A stretch of DNA of 26,356 nt from a virus: positions 1 to 26,356 of the IMG/VR virus record IMGVR_UViG_3300006929_000099, one strand, 5' to 3'. A model generated the notes under the pieces. The model was not told the origin of the DNA and did no database searches. It saw only the letters and a list, made by a program, of their open reading frames with translations. Positions 12,810-26,329 of this stretch are shown here, one piece after another. Every line of letters begins with the position of its first letter. Position 1 is the stretch's first letter. The position numbers and the translations under genes were made by a program.

Positions 12810-12832
12810 AATCGAAAGTTTATGTTTCGATT
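12810..12832 (-). promoter_or_regulatory. Operator-like palindrome upstream of the terminase/late cluster
   Basis: AATCGAAA (12810-12817) and TTTCGATT (12825-12832) form a perfect 8-bp inverted repeat around a 7-base centre. Read on the minus strand, the first 12 bases are AATCGAAACATA, identical to the arms of the large inverted repeat at 18202-18263. It sits between the helicase stop codon and the small terminase start. It is a plausible operator linking late transcription to the same regulator. Confidence 0.5.
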
Positions 12833-14294
12833 ATCTTTCCTCGCCGTGCAGGTCGACGGTCGCCGTGTCTTGCGCGTTCATCGCACGCAGCAATCGCTCT
12901 TGACTCATGTCCTTGTCGCGTATCGCGTCGCGAACGCGCTCGTCGACCGTGGCTTGCGCAATCAGCGTGTGCACGATCACGCGTCCTTCCTGACCCATGC
13001 GTTGTAATCGCGCGATGCCTTGCTGATACAGCTCGAGCGACCACGGCAGCGAGTACCACACGACGGTGTGTCCTCCACTTTGAAGGTTCAGCCCATGACC
13101 GCCGCTCGCTGGATGCATCGCGAGCAGTCTGATCTGCCCTGAGTTCCACCGGTCGATCACGTCGTCACCGTCGTCGAGCGTCTGCAAAAACGGGAACGCG
13201 TCGCGCAGCATCTCGAGGTCCGCCTGAAATTGATAAAAGATCAGGACGTTGTCACCGGTGCCTTCTAAAATTTCATCAACCGCATCGAGCTTTCGTTTAT
13301 GCACGGGCACCGTCGCTCGAGCGTTGTCGACGTTCTCGAGTACGTGGTCAATTTTCCACGCGTCAAAATCACCGAGATCATCGATGCGCTCTGCGTAAAC
13401 GAAACCGTTAGCGAGCTGCTGCAACTTGCATAGCAGCACCGCCGCGTTCACCGCACTAGCCTCGAAGGTCGACTGACTCTCCGCGAAATGCAAAGCGAAA
13501 TGCTCACGCAGCTCGTCGTACTTTTTTCGCTCCGCTGTCGCAAGTGGCACCGAGATAAAATTCTCGAGCACTGGGGGCAAGTCCAAATAATCTTTCGCAC
13601 GCAACGTGAGCACCATCTCGTCGACCGCGCTTCGAATTTCGACTTGTGCGTTCGGTCTCTCGTTGTAAGTCCAGCCCATGAAATCCTTGTCGAACCAGCG
13701 CTGCCGAAACGCCGTCACCGTTTTGCCAAGCGACTCACCCTGGTCGAGCAGCCAAATTTGAGACCAGAGATCGTGCGAACCGTTGGGCGCAGGTGTCCCA
13801 GTCATCTCGTAGAGTCGTTTGATTTTCCCTCGCACTTTTTTCAGCGCGCGAAAGCGTTTCGATGAATGGTTTTTGAAACTTGAACTCTCGTCGATCACAA
13901 CCGTGTCGAACTGCCACCGGTCACGGCCGAGATGCTCGACGAGCCAGGGCACCAGCTCACGGGAAATCACGTAGAGTCCGACCGCGTTGGTCTCGAGCAA
14001 CGCTGCGCGCTGTTTTGCACTCCCGCTCAGCTCGAATACCCCAGGCAGCTCGGGCTGCCACTTTGCGAACTCGCTCGGCCAGACACTGACCGCTACGCGC
14101 TTCGGCGCAATGACCAGGACGCGTTTCACCTGCCCTGCGCTTGATAATTTACCGAGCGCAGTGAGCACAGTCGCGGTTTTGCCGAGACCCATGTCGAGCC
14201 ACAGGGCAGCGGTCTCTCGCCGCGTGAGCCACTCGGCCGCCTGCTGCTGGTACGGATGCAATGAAACTTTTCGTTTTTCAATTTGGTATGCCAT
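12831..14294 (-). CDS. SNF2-family DNA helicase / translocase, 487 aa
   Basis: A superfamily 2 ATPase of the Swi2/Snf2 type found in phage replication modules. The Q-like entry is LHPYQQQAAEWL (12-23), Walker A is DMGLGKT (34-40), the DEAH-like box is VIDESS (133-138), motif III is TGTPAPN (165-171), and motif VI is QGIARLQRMGQ (425-435). I chose ATG 14294. A TTG at 14330 would add 12 residues, but TTGACA there looks like a -35 box. No good ribosome site precedes 14294. In related phages this gene neighbours VRR-NUC and primase genes; here the HTH-PAS pair separates them. Its likely role is remodelling replication or recombination intermediates. Confidence 0.88.
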   Translation of the reverse strand: MAYQIEKRKVSLHPYQQQAAEWLTRRETAALWLDMGLGKTATVLTALGKLSSAGQVKRVLVIAPKRVAVSVWPSEFAKWQPELPGVFELSGSAKQRAALLETNAVGLYVISRELVPWLVEHLGRDRWQFDTVVIDESSSFKNHSSKRFRALKKVRGKIKRLYEMTGTPAPNGSHDLWSQIWLLDQGESLGKTVTAFRQRWFDKDFMGWTYNERPNAQVEIRSAVDEMVLTLRAKDYLDLPPVLENFISVPLATAERKKYDELREHFALHFAESQSTFEASAVNAAVLLCKLQQLANGFVYAERIDDLGDFDAWKIDHVLENVDNARATVPVHKRKLDAVDEILEGTGDNVLIFYQFQADLEMLRDAFPFLQTLDDGDDVIDRWNSGQIRLLAMHPASGGHGLNLQSGGHTVVWYSLPWSLELYQQGIARLQRMGQEGRVIVHTLIAQATVDERVRDAIRDKDMSQERLLRAMNAQDTATVDLHGEER

Positions 14295-14301
14295 GCGGAC
14301 G

Positions 14302-14330
14302 ATATTCGCCGAGTGTTCACGGTCTGTCAA
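14302..14330 (-). promoter_or_regulatory. Possible promoter of the helicase/late cluster
   Basis: The minus strand has TTGACA (14330-14325), a 17-base spacer, then GAATAT (14307-14302). The -35 box is perfect and the -10 is weak (3 of 6). The initiation point would be very near ATG 14294, giving an almost leaderless message, which fits the absence of a ribosome site. Confidence 0.35.
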
Positions 14331-14339
14331 CAGATCGTA

Positions 14340-14385
14340 CCAAACTAACTTTTGTTGATCCTTTTAAACTTTTGGTTTAGTTTGG
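14340..14385. promoter_or_regulatory. Operator-like inverted repeat in the divergent promoter region
   Basis: CCAAACTAA (14340-14348) and TTAGTTTGG (14377-14385) form a perfect 9-bp inverted repeat with a 28-base AT-rich centre. The centre holds two copies of the dispersed motif (TAACTTTTGTTG at 14346-14357 and TAAACTTTTGGTTT at 14365-14378). It separates the leftward helicase gene from the rightward HTH-PAS pair and probably controls one or both, perhaps through the HTH protein itself. Confidence 0.5.
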
Positions 14386-14414
14386 GACCCTTTTAACGAG
14401 AAAGGAAAACGACG

Positions 14415-14858
14415 GTGCCAAAATTAGACTTCGTAAACCTAATCACGCTGGTGAACGCGAAACACGGGTCGCAAAAAGCGTTTTGTGATGAGCTTCAAAT
14501 CCGGGGGCGGCCGAAAGGCATCTCGCGGAGCACGCTGCTCAAGTGGAAACGCCGCGATGGCGAGGTTGATTTACTGACGATGTCGTCGGTATGCGAGCAC
14601 TTCGAAGTCGAGCGTCGCGTGCTCGACGAGAGCCTCCGCGAGATCGATCAAGCGGTCCTCGCCGAATGCCTGCTCAGCGTCCAGCGAGTGTGCGAAGAAG
14701 CGGGGAAAGAACTGCCGGACCTCGAGGACCGCGCGTTTTGGATCACGCGTTGTTACCGAGCCCGAATGGCGGGGAAAGAGCCAGCCGCCTACACGAAGGA
14801 ACTCAAGCGCGTGCTCGAAACCAACGTCATACCGTTACGCCAAAGCGAAGGAGAATAA
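14415..14858 (+). CDS. Helix-turn-helix regulator, 147 aa
   Basis: Starts with GTG at 14415, about 9 bases after AAAGGA. Residues about 17-68 read as a small Cro/CI-like helix-turn-helix: GSQKAFCDELQI, then ISRSTLLKWKRRDGEVDLLTMSSVCEHFEV, where the STLLKWK helix would contact DNA. Residues 70-147 are helical and charged (LREIDQAVLAECLLSVQRVCEEAG), probably a dimerisation part. There is no protease or kinase domain. It is followed after one base by the PAS gene, with a good ribosome site inside its 3' end, so the two form an operon. It may bind the inverted repeat just upstream. Its direct target is unknown. Confidence 0.7.
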   Translation: MPKLDFVNLITLVNAKHGSQKAFCDELQIRGRPKGISRSTLLKWKRRDGEVDLLTMSSVCEHFEVERRVLDESLREIDQAVLAECLLSVQRVCEEAGKELPDLEDRAFWITRCYRARMAGKEPAAYTKELKRVLETNVIPLRQSEGE

Positions 14859-14859
14859 T

Positions 14860-15429
14860 GTGTCCAATAAAATAAAAAATAATGATACCCGCCCTCAACA
14901 CTCCCTAGTCGCCGAAGACCCGGAGATCCGAGCGCTATACTCGCAATGCGTCGAAGAACTCATGCACGAGCCTTCGCGCATCACAAGCTTCGATGCGGAC
15001 GGCATCCTCGGATTGATCCACACGGGCTATAGCGTCGGGCACGCGATCACCGGTCGATTCATTTACACGAGCAAACCGTACGCGATGGCCCTTGGATACA
15101 CGCCGAGCGAAATGGAGTGGAACATGCGCTGGTTCGACATCGTCGAAATCGGCGAAGGCGAGCGCGACGCGAGATCGGAAATCACGCGCCAGCTCGAATC
15201 CATTCGAAATTTTGGCGTGTCGACGACCGCCAGCCGGCGAACCTGGCGTCATAAACGCGGCCATACCGTCACGGGCGAATGTCGATATTACGGCGCGCAC
15301 ACCTCCGACATTCGTGTGGCGCAGACCGGCAACGACGAGTCAACCGTCGAAGGGTGCCCGGTCCTCATCTGCGAAGCGCGCTTTGATCACTTTCATTCGG
15401 TAACCGGGAAGGCTCAGATGTCTGAATAG
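14860..15429 (+). CDS. Stand-alone PAS-domain sensor-like protein, 189 aa
   Basis: The start is GTG 14860, with AAGGAG 7 bases upstream; an overlapping ATG at 14858 gives only a few codons. After a disordered start and a helix (residues 20-40), residues about 60-146 show the PAS pattern. GRFIYTSKPYAMALGYTPSEM (65-85) fits the usual G.i.y.N.a....lGYs..El, WFDIVEIGEGERDARSEITRQLES fits the helix after it, and RRTWRHKRGHTVTGECRYYGA (126-146) fits the closing strands with the KRG turn. No LOV cysteine motif and no output domain are present. PAS domains bind small ligands or partners. The partner is probably the HTH protein upstream, which is inference. It ends four bases before the convergent nuclease gene. 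Confidence 0.75.
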   Translation: MSNKIKNNDTRPQHSLVAEDPEIRALYSQCVEELMHEPSRITSFDADGILGLIHTGYSVGHAITGRFIYTSKPYAMALGYTPSEMEWNMRWFDIVEIGEGERDARSEITRQLESIRNFGVSTTASRRTWRHKRGHTVTGECRYYGAHTSDIRVAQTGNDESTVEGCPVLICEARFDHFHSVTGKAQMSE

Positions 15430-15433
15430 CGGA

Positions 15434-15763
15434 TCAGAGACTCAGGAAATTCTCGACGTCGTCGTGACCGGCTAACACGACGACGTCGAGACGCATCGCA
15501 CGCAAGCGCCGGACTTCGATCTGCTGTAACCGGCTCAACTTCCCATGCCTCGTTTTCAGCTCAACGAAAACGATTCGCCACGGCTCAACTGTTTGTTTGT
15601 TTTTGCTTACCCCCGTCACCCCGGACGCAGGGGGTAAGAACACGAGCCGGTCCGGTGCCCCACGCCGCCCGACCCAAGCCAGCTTCCTCACCTCACCCCC
15701 GAGAGATTTCACCCCCCGCACCAGGGCACGCTCAACATCCCGCTCAAGTTCTCGATTTGCCAT
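15434..15763 (-). CDS. VRR-NUC domain nuclease, 109 aa
   Basis: This small PD-(D/E)XK nuclease is typical of phage replication modules. The catalytic signature is GAPDRLVF (35-42), VFVELKT (65-71) with E68 and K70, and the helix LSRLQQIEVRRLRAM with Q80/Q81. Family members act on branched or flap DNA, and stand-alone phage forms are suggested to process replication or recombination junctions. A segment between strands (residues 44-60) is a longer Ser/Gly/Lys loop than in compact members. The start ATG 15763 overlaps the repeat cluster that lies between this gene and the primase gene; GGA about 9 bases upstream is the only ribosome-site candidate. Confidence 0.87.
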   Translation of the reverse strand: MANRELERDVERALVRGVKSLGGEVRKLAWVGRRGAPDRLVFLPPASGVTGVSKNKQTVEPWRIVFVELKTRHGKLSRLQQIEVRRLRAMRLDVVVLAGHDDVENFLSL

Positions 15764-15904
15764 TTAGGTAGTCCAAGCGAACACCGCCAGGTAGTCATAG
15801 GGACCCCCCTTTAGGGGGGGGTTCCCCCAGACTATCTGGCATCGGAGTGTCAGGTAGTCATGTTTTAGGTAGTCCGAGGTAGTCCAAATTCGTTTTGACT
15901 ACCT
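15764..15904. repeat. Cluster of AGGTAGTC iterons with a C6/G6 hairpin: candidate replication origin
   Basis: Five direct copies of AGGTAGTC start at 15766, 15789, 15852, 15867 and 15877, and an inverted copy lies at 15897-15904 over the primase stop codon. A degenerate inverted copy is at 15830-15837 (GACTATCT). Between them 15804-15819 forms a CCCCCC-TTTA-GGGGGG hairpin. Extended copies share a following C or CA (AGGTAGTCC or AGGTAGTCA). The density of iterons next to the primase-helicase gene suggests an initiator-binding region. Alternatives are a repressor operator cluster or a terminator. Confidence 0.55.
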
Positions 15905-17915
15905 AAATACAAACCCAAAATCCACCGCCCTGACCGCGTCCGTCTCCCTTATTTCTGATCACTTCGCCAAGCTCCGCGAACCCTGCCAAAGCGCGCCGCA
16001 GGTTCTGCGCGCTCACCGGTTCTTGCTCCTGCTCGGCACGTTTAGCGCTCAACTGTTGGTTGAATTCGCGCAGCGAAACGTAAGGCATTTCGACGTCCGA
16101 ATCGGGCGGCGCAGACTTGATCGGCGGGATCGGATGCGCGAGCAATTCGGCAATGACCTCTCTGATCTGTGCGTCAAGGCCGGGTCGTCTGCCGGCGATC
16201 ACCTTCTCAACGCGCAGCTCCTTTAGCTCGTCGGTCGACATCGGCTCGAGTACCAAACTGTCGATGTCGTGCTCCATGTTGATCAGTATTTTTTTCGGCT
16301 TGAACACGATCTCCCTGGGCTCCTCCGCGTCCTTCATTTTCTGCGCGATCAAGCGCGACGCGTCACCTTCGCGCTGCATCTGGAATTCCCAGTCGAGTCC
16401 GTTGTGTAGCGAGCTGCTGCCGCGAAACTCGTCGCCATCCTTGCGGCTGTGGTGCACGAGCATCACCACGCAGTCGAGCCGGCGGGCGAGGCCGCGCTCG
16501 AGCACGTCGAACAACATCGAGATGTCTTGGCTCTCGTTTTCGTTGCCGCCGCCGAAATTGCGATGGAGTGTGTCGACGATCACCAGGCGCAGCGGTTCGG
16601 CGAGCGTCTCGGCCACGTAGTCAACAACAGCCGCGCAGAACTGCGGGTCTCGGACGTTGCCCGCCCCACGGCTGACGTGGAACGGCGCGTCTTCGATCTC
16701 GAGATCGTTTTGAATCGCCCAGGCTGCGGCGCGTCGAGCGATGCCGCGCACGCCCTCACCAGCCACGTAGAGCACGGCCCCTTGAGTGACGGCGTTGCCA
16801 TGCCATTCGATCCCGGTCGCGATGCACAGGCCCATGTCGACAGCGAGGAAGCTCTTGTAGGCGCTGCTATCGCCCCAGACCATTCCGATCCCCTGGCGTT
16901 CGATGTAGTCGTCGACTAACCAGTCGATGGGGCCAAGGCCGGCCAGGCTTTCGCCGATTGATTGGAACTCGAGGTGCCGGCGCTTGACGCGTGCGTTGTC
17001 TTCGACCTCTTCGATCTCGAACTCGCCCGGTGGTGCCAGCTCGGCCCGCGCCCGTGCATAGGTGCGCGCCAGATAATCAGCACGCTCGGACTTTTGTTGA
17101 TTGGAGCTACGCTCATAGACAATCGACGCACGGCGCACGTGGTCGACCTCTTCATTCGTTGCGTCGGGTAACTGGCGCAGCGCTGCCAAGGCGAACGCTA
17201 GATCTCTCTCGCTGTTGCCCGGCCAATTCTCAACTTCCCACCGCTCCTCCTCGTCGAGTCTCAGCAGCGCGTGCAGTTCACGCTCCCGCTCAGTCAGGTC
17301 GTGGACGCTGAGCAAACCCTCCACGTCCGGGCTCCAGTTATCCGGCTGCGTCTCCACGTGGCGCTCGAGCTGCAACTGTTCACGTAGCCTATTGAAGACC
17401 TGTGAGCAGTCGGCGACGTCCTTGCCGTTGCTCTGCCCGGTAAAAGTGAAAAACCTCCCCCAGTTATAAAGTTCAACGCCTGCGTTGCGGTCGTTTGTGC
17501 CGCGCCACTGTTGTTCGCTGTTCTCGAAGAACAGCGCGTGGAAGCCGGTCCCCGATGGACTGCGCTCGACGTACGTGAGTTCGTTTAGCTCGGTGTGCAG
17601 ATCTCGAGCGAGACCTGCTGTGATCTCTTCGAAGATCGGATCGAAGCACTTGTCGAGATCGATCCCGGCGAGGCCGTCGCCTAAGACGATGCCGATCCCG
17701 TCCTGGCCCTTGTCGTGCTCGAGCAAACTGAGCGCGGTCGTCGCCGAAAGCAGTTTGCCGGCAACAACGGAGCGGTCAGGCACCTTAGTCCAGCGCCCAC
17801 GGTGACGCTCGAAGCGCCAGGTCAGCCAGCGCTCACGTTCGCGCAAGCTATTCGGGATCGACTCAAGCGTTGGGCGTGGACTCGTCGGCCTAGCCGGCAA
17901 TTGCGTGATGCTCAC
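15903..17915 (-). CDS. Bifunctional primase-helicase (AEP-like primase plus RepA-type ATPase), 670 aa
   Basis: Residues about 20-180 resemble an archaeo-eukaryotic primase/PriPol domain: WLTWRFERHRGRWTKVP (30-46), GIDLDKC (84-90, acidic pair D86/D88), and SPSGTGFH (119-126). Residues about 315-545 are a RecA-fold helicase of the RepA/AAA_25 type, with Walker A GDSSAYKS (348-355), GEG at 386-388, Walker B LRLVIVDTL (442-450), HHSRKDGDEFRGSSSL (488-503), and an FKPKKILINM strand. The C-terminal 80 residues look like a winged-helix or accessory region. The GTG start at 17915 overlaps the upstream TGA as GTGA; upstream sequence in this frame belongs to another gene. It primes and unwinds phage DNA. 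Confidence 0.85.
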   Translation of the reverse strand: MSITQLPARPTSPRPTLESIPNSLRERERWLTWRFERHRGRWTKVPDRSVVAGKLLSATTALSLLEHDKGQDGIGIVLGDGLAGIDLDKCFDPIFEEITAGLARDLHTELNELTYVERSPSGTGFHALFFENSEQQWRGTNDRNAGVELYNWGRFFTFTGQSNGKDVADCSQVFNRLREQLQLERHVETQPDNWSPDVEGLLSVHDLTERERELHALLRLDEEERWEVENWPGNSERDLAFALAALRQLPDATNEEVDHVRRASIVYERSSNQQKSERADYLARTYARARAELAPPGEFEIEEVEDNARVKRRHLEFQSIGESLAGLGPIDWLVDDYIERQGIGMVWGDSSAYKSFLAVDMGLCIATGIEWHGNAVTQGAVLYVAGEGVRGIARRAAAWAIQNDLEIEDAPFHVSRGAGNVRDPQFCAAVVDYVAETLAEPLRLVIVDTLHRNFGGGNENESQDISMLFDVLERGLARRLDCVVMLVHHSRKDGDEFRGSSSLHNGLDWEFQMQREGDASRLIAQKMKDAEEPREIVFKPKKILINMEHDIDSLVLEPMSTDELKELRVEKVIAGRRPGLDAQIREVIAELLAHPIPPIKSAPPDSDVEMPYVSLREFNQQLSAKRAEQEQEPVSAQNLRRALAGFAELGEVIRNKGDGRGQGGGFWVCI

Positions 17916-18184
17916 GCTTCCGTTTTGAACGCAAGGGCAAGGTCGGGTCTGAGCTGCGCACCGGTCACCATACCGTGCGTCAGTCTCACCACGGACGGGA
18001 TGCGGTCCGCCGGGAACTTGTAGTCGGGGTCCTCGGCTGCCGCTTTGCGAACGCGGTAAACGTACTGCGGCGAACACTCCCAGTCCGCCGCCAGGTCTTC
18101 GACGCCGATGATCGAGCACGCAATTGTGAATGGGTGTGGTGGTCGCCAATTGCGCCGGCGGCCGCTGTCCTCGTCTGTCGACAC
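17912..18184 (-). CDS. YdaS/Cro-like DNA-binding regulator, 90 aa
   Basis: GTG start at 18184 with a strong GAGGAG about 8 bases upstream. Residues 25-50 form a helix-turn-helix (IGVEDLAADWECSPQYVYRVRKA) and residues 58-81 read FPADRIPSVVRLTHGMVTGAQL, the C-terminal pattern of YdaS/Cro-like phage regulators (iPa.r...Ie..T.G.v...LRPD). It is the first gene of the leftward replication operon and overlaps the primase start. Directly upstream is a perfect 23-bp inverted repeat, a likely binding site for autoregulation and control of the divergent plus-strand operon. It may be the phage's Cro or an activator of replication genes. Confidence 0.78.
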   Translation of the reverse strand: MSTDEDSGRRRNWRPPHPFTIACSIIGVEDLAADWECSPQYVYRVRKAAAEDPDYKFPADRIPSVVRLTHGMVTGAQLRPDLALAFKTEA

Positions 18185-18201
18185 TTGTCGTCTCCTCGAA
18201 A

Positions 18202-18263
18202 TTAAATCGAAACATATTGTTGCAATTTATTTCGATCAAATGCAACAATATGTTTCGATTTAA
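18202..18263. promoter_or_regulatory. Perfect 23-bp inverted repeat in the divergent replication promoter
   Basis: The left arm (18202-18224) and right arm (18241-18263) are exact reverse complements over 23 bases, separated by 16 AT-rich bases. Each arm contains AATCGAAACATATTGTT. Leftward and rightward transcripts must start here. A minus-strand TTGATC (18239-18234), 17-base spacer and TATGTT (18216-18211) could be one promoter overlapping the arm. The site is almost certainly an operator for a regulator, most simply the 90-aa protein. Confidence 0.75.
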
Positions 18264-18291
18264 AAACAAACAACAAAGCTAGGGGACCCCA

Positions 18292-25307: not shown

Positions 25308-25943
25308 ATGGACAGCGCATTCATCGAACGACTCGTCACAAGCTGCGACGAGGCAGGAATACCCGAGCCGAATCGCGGCCGGTTTCAAAACCTGGCCGGG
25401 CAGATGGGTGTGTCGCACACAGCCGTTTGCGGATGGTTCACCGGTCGCTCGCGACCACGTTATGATCGAATCGAGCACCTCTCCGAGATCTTGAACGTCG
25501 ATCCAATGTGGCTCGGCTTCGGTCGAGAGCTCGGCGTCACGGCGGGCGACGTTCCGGTCGAATGGGTCCACGCCGCGACCGCCGGCGTCACGAGCATGCT
25601 GTTGTTTAACAACTGGAGTGTCGCCGCCGGCACTCGCGAAGGTGAAGTACTCGCGGTGAAGTCAGGCCGCTCTCGTCGCATTCATCCTGCGACGGCGAAG
25701 GGCAGTGGGGATAATTGGACCGGCGTCTTCGACGCACGCGCATGGGCAGACGATGAAGTAGAGACGCCGCTCGTTTGTTTTGTCCCAGACCGCCCGTGGT
25801 TTTTCGACACCGGTTCGGTGAAAGCAAAGCACGCGGAGAAGCGCGGGCCGAATGTCATTTTGAGTCTGGCTGGCACGTGCACGAAACGCTCGTGCGTACC
25901 GACCGTCGGCGGTTCGAAGTTAACCGCGTTCGACTTCGTTTAA
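25308..25943 (+). CDS. Repressor-like HTH protein with possible degenerate nuclease-fold C-terminus, 211 aa
   Basis: The N-terminal residues 24-75 form a classic XRE/CI helix-turn-helix (FQNLAGQMGVSHTAVCGWFTG, then ILNVDPMWLGFG). No RecA-cleavage (S24 peptidase) domain follows. Instead residues 88-180 read like a PD-(D/E)XK small-nuclease layout: a helix (ATAGVTSMLLFNNW), GEVLAVKSGRSRRIHPATA (112-130) and FDARAWADDE, VCFVPDRPWFF. In active relatives the second strand ends QVK-TA; here HPATA lacks the catalytic Lys, so it looks dead. Likely the lysogeny repressor, with induction other than RecA cleavage. Its stop TAA overlaps the convergent holin stop within TTAA. The start has AAAGG 9 bases upstream. 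Confidence 0.72.
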   Translation: MDSAFIERLVTSCDEAGIPEPNRGRFQNLAGQMGVSHTAVCGWFTGRSRPRYDRIEHLSEILNVDPMWLGFGRELGVTAGDVPVEWVHAATAGVTSMLLFNNWSVAAGTREGEVLAVKSGRSRRIHPATAKGSGDNWTGVFDARAWADDEVETPLVCFVPDRPWFFDTGSVKAKHAEKRGPNVILSLAGTCTKRSCVPTVGGSKLTAFDFV

Positions 25944-26329
25944 TCTCGAGCGACGCCCTTCGATTTTTCGAAACTGCGCAAGCCTGACATCCCGAGCATC
26001 GCCATTAGGATCGTGTTGAGCGGTCCGATGTCGATCTCGGGAAGCGGCTCGTTGTAGCCCGCAACAGCGAATGCAAACACAAGCGCCGGCGCGAGGATGA
26101 AGTGCCACGCCAAGGCGCTCACCGCCACCCATCCGACCGCCGGTCGCCAGCCGCTCACGAACAGCGACTTGTGCGCGGCTTCCGTTTTGTTGACTTCCAT
26201 CTGCGCCAAATTTTGCTCGAGCATCGCCGTCTCGATCTCGTGCTCGAGTTTTGCCTTAAGGTCTTTATCGGCAACGAACTTGTCGAGAACTTTGCCCACG
26301 GCTCCGACGATTGTCTCAGCGATTGGCAT
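25940..26329 (-). CDS. Holin of the 3TM type, 129 aa
   Basis: Residues 1-65 are a charged amphipathic start (IVGAVGKVLDKFVADKDLKAKLEHEIETAML, then EVNKTEAAHKSLFVSGWRPAVGW). Then two to three hydrophobic segments follow: VAVSALAWHFILAPALVFAFAVAG (about 68-91) and a C-terminal IGPLNTILMAMLGMSGLRSFEK. This order, with HKSLFVSGWRPAVGW before the first segment, fits the GTA-holin_3TM group that permeabilises the membrane at lysis. ATG 26329 has GGAG about 9 bases upstream. It is the last late-strand gene and is convergent with the repressor-like gene. Confidence 0.8.
   Translation of the reverse strand: MPIAETIVGAVGKVLDKFVADKDLKAKLEHEIETAMLEQNLAQMEVNKTEAAHKSLFVSGWRPAVGWVAVSALAWHFILAPALVFAFAVAGYNEPLPEIDIGPLNTILMAMLGMSGLRSFEKSKGVARD

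Follow-up and report, generated by a model that had tools for sequence, protein, structure and literature searches.

Few sensory inputs besides DNA damage, peptides and quorum signals are known to reach the lysis–lysogeny or replication decisions of phages. In the NifL–NifA system, a PAS sensor is encoded beside the transcription regulator under its control; of the two, NifL also carries kinase-like domains, and NifA is an activator of the AAA+ type. The closest phage precedents are two. VqmA of phage VP882 is a PAS–HTH quorum-sensing receptor whose PAS domain provides ligand binding and dimerisation (PMC8284805, PMC12802170). In the xre-luxR operons of Aeromonas phages, an XRE protein cooperates with a ligand receptor to activate a divergent promoter, which leads to inactivation of cI (PMC10432266). 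Short LOV proteins such as SBW25-LOV and PpSB1-LOV consist of a stand-alone PAS core and an N-terminal helix with no effector domain (PMC4335406, PMC4416707).

The locus described here lies in the genome of a tailed phage with an integrase. The window that we analysed spans the viral record in full (26,356 bases), and the features on which the comparison draws are as follows:

12831–14330, minus strand: SNF2-family DNA helicase of 499 aa (phrog_62, E 1.3e-146), left flank, divergent from the cassette
14331–14414, no strand: intergenic region of 84 bp between the SNF2 gene (minus) and the HTH-like gene (plus), candidate operator/promoter
14415–14858, plus strand: HTH-like ORF, 147 aa, GTG start, putative XRE-like helix-turn-helix protein
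14860–15429, plus strand: PAS-like ORF, 189 aa, GTG start, stand-alone PAS-like protein
15434–15763, minus strand: VRR-NUC endonuclease (phrog_93, E 3.7e-16; PF08774 weak), right flank, convergent with the PAS-like gene
25308–25943, plus strand: DicA-like repressor candidate, 211 aa, N-terminal HTH_3/DicA-like domain, C-terminal part unmatched

On paper, the two-gene cassette works like VqmA and the XRE–LuxR modules, and it is a member of neither. As in VqmA, a PAS sensor is linked to an HTH DNA-binding part and encoded by a temperate phage. VqmA, however, combines both in a single chain, with the HTH at the C-terminus, and responds to DPO, whereas the cassette comprises two chains with the HTH gene first, and no sequence relative was found. 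In the XRE–LuxR and TF–smORF modules (Aeromonas phages Apop and ARM81ld), the sensor LuxR has its own HTH (PMC10432266) and the divergent gene encodes a small antirepressor acting on cI; the sensor of the cassette is PAS-only and its divergent gene encodes the SNF2 helicase. The 189-aa protein shares the overall plan of the short LOV proteins, which were its best Foldseek matches (with a low-confidence model), but not their photoactive cysteine. With NifL–NifA the cassette has the two-protein logic in common, without the kinase-like and AAA+ parts.

Both ORFs are genes, as judged from their in-frame codon usage and SD sequences. Scored against the phage’s own codon usage, on which its confident genes reach 0.15–0.26 nats per codon, the HTH-like and PAS-like ORFs gave 0.22 and 0.16 in frame. 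Their other frames were negative, except one antisense frame of the HTH-like ORF at 0.05. Given this native composition, the pair was not acquired very recently from a host whose base composition differs. The HTH-like gene has the SD sequence AAAGGA 8 nt upstream of its start. The PAS-like gene lies in a different frame after a 1-base gap and has AAGGAG 6 nt upstream of its start, within the end of the HTH-like gene. The two thus form a classic coupled pair that looks like one operon, and the stop of the second gene is separated from that of VRR-NUC by 4 bp. The original prediction of two rightward genes between flanks on the opposite strand, 147 aa and then 189 aa with one base between them, proved exact in coordinates and lengths.

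We next consider the second protein, which is very probably PAS-like. We built a PAS profile from 105 domains, taken from two bacterial genomes and from the dosP/dosC locus of E. coli, and scored sequences against it without filters. It matched the 189-aa protein with 14.6 bits over residues 64–139 (envelope 47–151), compared to best null scores of 9.5 bits among 14,302 viral ORFs and 8.6 bits among 5,000 shuffles. An earlier profile of 51 domains agreed with this result. The PAS pattern predicted at residues of about 60–146 was thereby recovered above every null. The claim that the protein has no kinase, cyclase or other output domain was also supported. The search with curated models that had been proposed as a check gave no such agreement: PF08447, PF13426 and PF00989 did not match even at E 10, and the protein had no match in Pfam hmmscan, PHROGs or NCBIfam. 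We therefore call it PAS-like rather than a member of the Pfam PAS family, because no PAS model scored above its curated cut-off.

An AlphaFold2 (AF2) single-sequence model of the protein was poor (mean pLDDT 36.8). It places an N-terminal helix at about 21–36, a PAS core at about 48–147 and a last strand at about 167–175, an order of secondary structure that fits the two strands, helices and three strands of a PAS domain following an N-terminal helix. When this low-confidence model was searched against the PDB with Foldseek, all of the top 50 matches (best E 0.0025) were chains of the PAS, LOV or HIF/ARNT type, and they included stand-alone short LOV proteins aligned nearly end to end. Rigid structure alignment of the same model gave PAS chains Z scores of 2.4–2.8, below those of unrelated chains (up to 4.5), which is expected because the model is poor.

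Sensing of light, redox state or a small ligand had been suggested for this protein, and its sequence speaks against two of these in their familiar forms. In a profile alignment with the LOV domain of YtvA, NMRWF stands where LOV has NCRFL, and the photoactive cysteine of the motif GxNCRFLQ was not found in the 189-aa protein. Light sensing is accordingly disfavoured, and flavin binding is not supported by the sequence. Redox or gas sensing through a haem of the FixL/Dos type is disfavoured as well, since the predicted F helix (residues 99–117) has no histidine that could serve as the axial ligand. No known cofactor signature was found in the protein, and a structural role without a ligand is possible.

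The 147-aa partner is probably an HTH protein. It shows an XRE-like pattern in which additional residues (about 31–36) form a loop between the two HTH helices, and its C-terminal half is helical. A home-made HTH profile scored it at 9.9 bits, a weak value reached by 1 of 2,000 shuffles. Its best Pfam match was Xre-MbcA-ParS_M at E 0.0031, below the cut-off, and no HTH family in Pfam exceeded its curated cut-off. The AF2 model (mean pLDDT 68) is all helical apart from a small hairpin, and a fold search of the PDB with it returned no match and no DNA-binding protein.

Neither protein has relatives in the collections searched. With tblastn, none turned up for either protein in phages at an E limit of 0.01 or in viral contigs, and none for the PAS-like protein in phages at the looser limit of 10 or in genome contigs; matches of the PAS-like protein to plasmids at E values up to 10 were dismissed as noise. 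No second copy of the pair was found near relatives of the portal, SNF2, primase or DNA polymerase genes, and an apparent HTH–PAS pair in one contig (L233) was rejected, being antisense to a major capsid gene. For want of relatives, it is the gene arrangement that speaks for a partnership of the two proteins. Absence of the pair from relatives combined with decay of the PAS-like gene had been named as an outcome that would count against the prediction; the absence was observed, but the coding statistics of the gene are intact. PAS sensors are rare in phages but do have precedents. Their supposed rarity held in that a typical PAS query matched no phage record, and has to be qualified by VqmA of VP882 and by a viral structure library in which uncultured Caudovirales are represented with PAS proteins of 169 and 205 aa, alongside several viral histidine kinases.

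To place the cassette in its genomic setting, we compared the SNF2–VRR-NUC interval with that of viral relatives from IMG/VR having both genes (119 cases from two sets that share a few contigs, or about 115 loci). The two genes overlap by about 6–112 nt in 113 of the 119 (as a negative extrapolated gap) and are separated by 121–404 nt in the other 6, compared to 1,103 nt in the window. None of the 119 has SNF2 and VRR-NUC in opposite orientation, and none of the relatives with both genes carries an opposite-strand cassette of such kind between them; phages Stiles, AL and Javan140, for example, have the two genes overlapping in the same orientation. These comparisons bear out the expectation that the genes are usually near-contiguous on one strand. 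They also support the reading of the cassette as a later insertion that split SNF2 from VRR-NUC. SNF2 is cut off from the transcription unit that it shares with VRR-NUC in relatives. As it does not directly follow VRR-NUC, its promoter probably lies in the 84-bp region, unless transcription reads through to the gene across the cassette in antisense.

The 84-bp region contains an inverted repeat, GTACCAAACTAA (14337–14348) and TTAGTTTGGGAC (14377–14388), with 11 of 12 positions paired and a spacing of 28 nt; its arms are also cited as CCAAACTAA/TTAGTTTGG. The element AACTTTTG is present twice (14347 and 14367). An equally good 12-nt inverted repeat arose in 11 of 500 dinucleotide shuffles (about 2%), and no sigma-70 consensus promoter was found in the region. 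We regard the repeat at 14337–14388 as a candidate operator and no more.

Our preferred explanation, which we hold tentatively and at slightly less than even confidence, is that the cassette is a small self-regulated two-protein sensor–regulator operon of a temperate phage, acting at the 84-bp region. The HTH protein would bind the inverted repeat and control its own operon together with the divergent SNF2 helicase gene as putative target. The PAS protein, as a dimer, would contact the HTH protein and alter the latter's binding to DNA in response to a small ligand, the state of a cofactor or a host partner, and the cassette may thereby affect replication or induction. Such a two-protein regulator is reasonable because of the two phage precedents, VqmA and the xre-luxR operons. 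In its favour are the 1-base spacing, the SD sequence of the second gene, native codon usage and a PAS score above all nulls. The uniform Foldseek matches of the predicted model, the HTH-like pattern, the inverted repeat and the apparent separation of SNF2 from the VRR-NUC unit are consistent with it. Against it, the lack of relatives means that neither covariation nor conserved pairing attests the partnership, curated PAS models and rigid alignment are weak, and the HTH fold is unconfirmed. The inverted repeat is mildly significant, and consensus promoter and cofactor signature are missing. In a more specific version, the PAS protein, standing alone and responding to a new ligand, would gate the HTH protein as a separate regulator of a replication helicase and so tie replication or induction to host metabolism; we consider this rather unlikely. 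If true, a PAS sensor encoded apart from its neighbouring phage regulator would be a further type of input (metabolite, redox or cofactor state), and it would show that phages build switches of this kind from individual parts where the replication module is controlled.

Other explanations make different use of the same observations. The PAS-like protein might be a moron product whose target is a signalling protein of the host; it could, for instance, pair with the PAS domain of a kinase or cyclase there, and the HTH protein would then do no more than autoregulate the cassette. That the insertion is lineage-specific, has a promoter region of its own and lacks relatives in other phages would suit this role, as would a PAS-like protein without an output domain, given that PAS domains commonly dimerise. 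We nevertheless think it unlikely: the tight coupling to the HTH gene suggests a joint function, and there is no pointer to a host target. Alternatively, the pair could sense a cue and end lysogeny by antagonising the CI/DicA-like repressor, as TF–smORF modules do, with either the PAS-like protein or a gene under the pair’s control as antirepressor. The phage has both an integrase and a DicA-like HTH repressor gene (25308–25943), and XRE-plus-receptor modules in phages act in this way (PMC10432266). The divergent gene, however, is a helicase rather than a small ORF, and the repressor gene lies about 10 kb away, which makes this reading improbable.

A toxin–antitoxin-like pair, that is, an XRE-type antitoxin followed by a toxin, autoregulated at the upstream inverted repeat and with a second protein that merely looks PAS-like, would agree with the gene order, spacing and upstream repeat of type II modules. 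It would also agree with the sub-threshold match of the first protein to the Xre/MbcA/ParS antitoxin middle domain. Yet a search of the window for the RES toxin domain (PF08808) returned nothing up to E 10, PADLOC and NCBIfam gave no toxin match (indeed, nothing matched in the PADLOC defence-system library), and the PAS profile score exceeds every null, so that we consider such a pair quite improbable. That the ORFs are not genes, or that the PAS resemblance arose by chance, would be in keeping with the absence of database relatives and the silence of curated PAS models. It is highly improbable in view of codon statistics, SD sites, gene coupling and a profile score above about 19,000 nulls.

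The wider genome shows where the cassette might fit in the phage’s regulation. The head and portal genes are similar to their counterparts in Myxococcus phages Mx8/Mx9 and Stenotrophomonas phage BUCT555, and the portal is ~60% identical to that of viruses from IMG/VR metagenomes. The replication module comprises the SNF2 helicase, VRR-NUC, a primase-helicase, an exonuclease, a single-strand annealing protein and a DNA polymerase. The 211-aa HTH_3/DicA-like protein is probably the main repressor of the phage, and the cassette is therefore probably an additional regulator. The end of the repressor gene is overlapped by a holin gene of the gene-transfer-agent type (25940–26329, minus strand; PF11351, E 3.6e-21) with three transmembrane segments.

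Three phages with ~60% identical portals (L014, L015 and L022) have other replication modules. Their primases are only 18–26% identical to that of the window (region 15903–18269, minus strand), and SNF2 and VRR-NUC are not near the primase. The same portal type beside unlike primases indicates that shuffling moves whole structural and replication modules. Finally, VRR-NUC and the primase-helicase gene are separated by 139 bp, and this gap (region 15764–15908) contains six copies of AGGTAGTC with flanking similarity, at 15765, 15788, 15851, 15866 and 15876 on the plus strand and at 15897 on the minus strand. The window holds 7 matches compared to 1.0 expected, a count reached by none of 100 shuffles. 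A 20-nt inverted repeat (15762–15781/15889–15908) and a GC hairpin (15800–15825) lie between the same two genes, and the repeats are iteron-like, making the gap a candidate replication origin.
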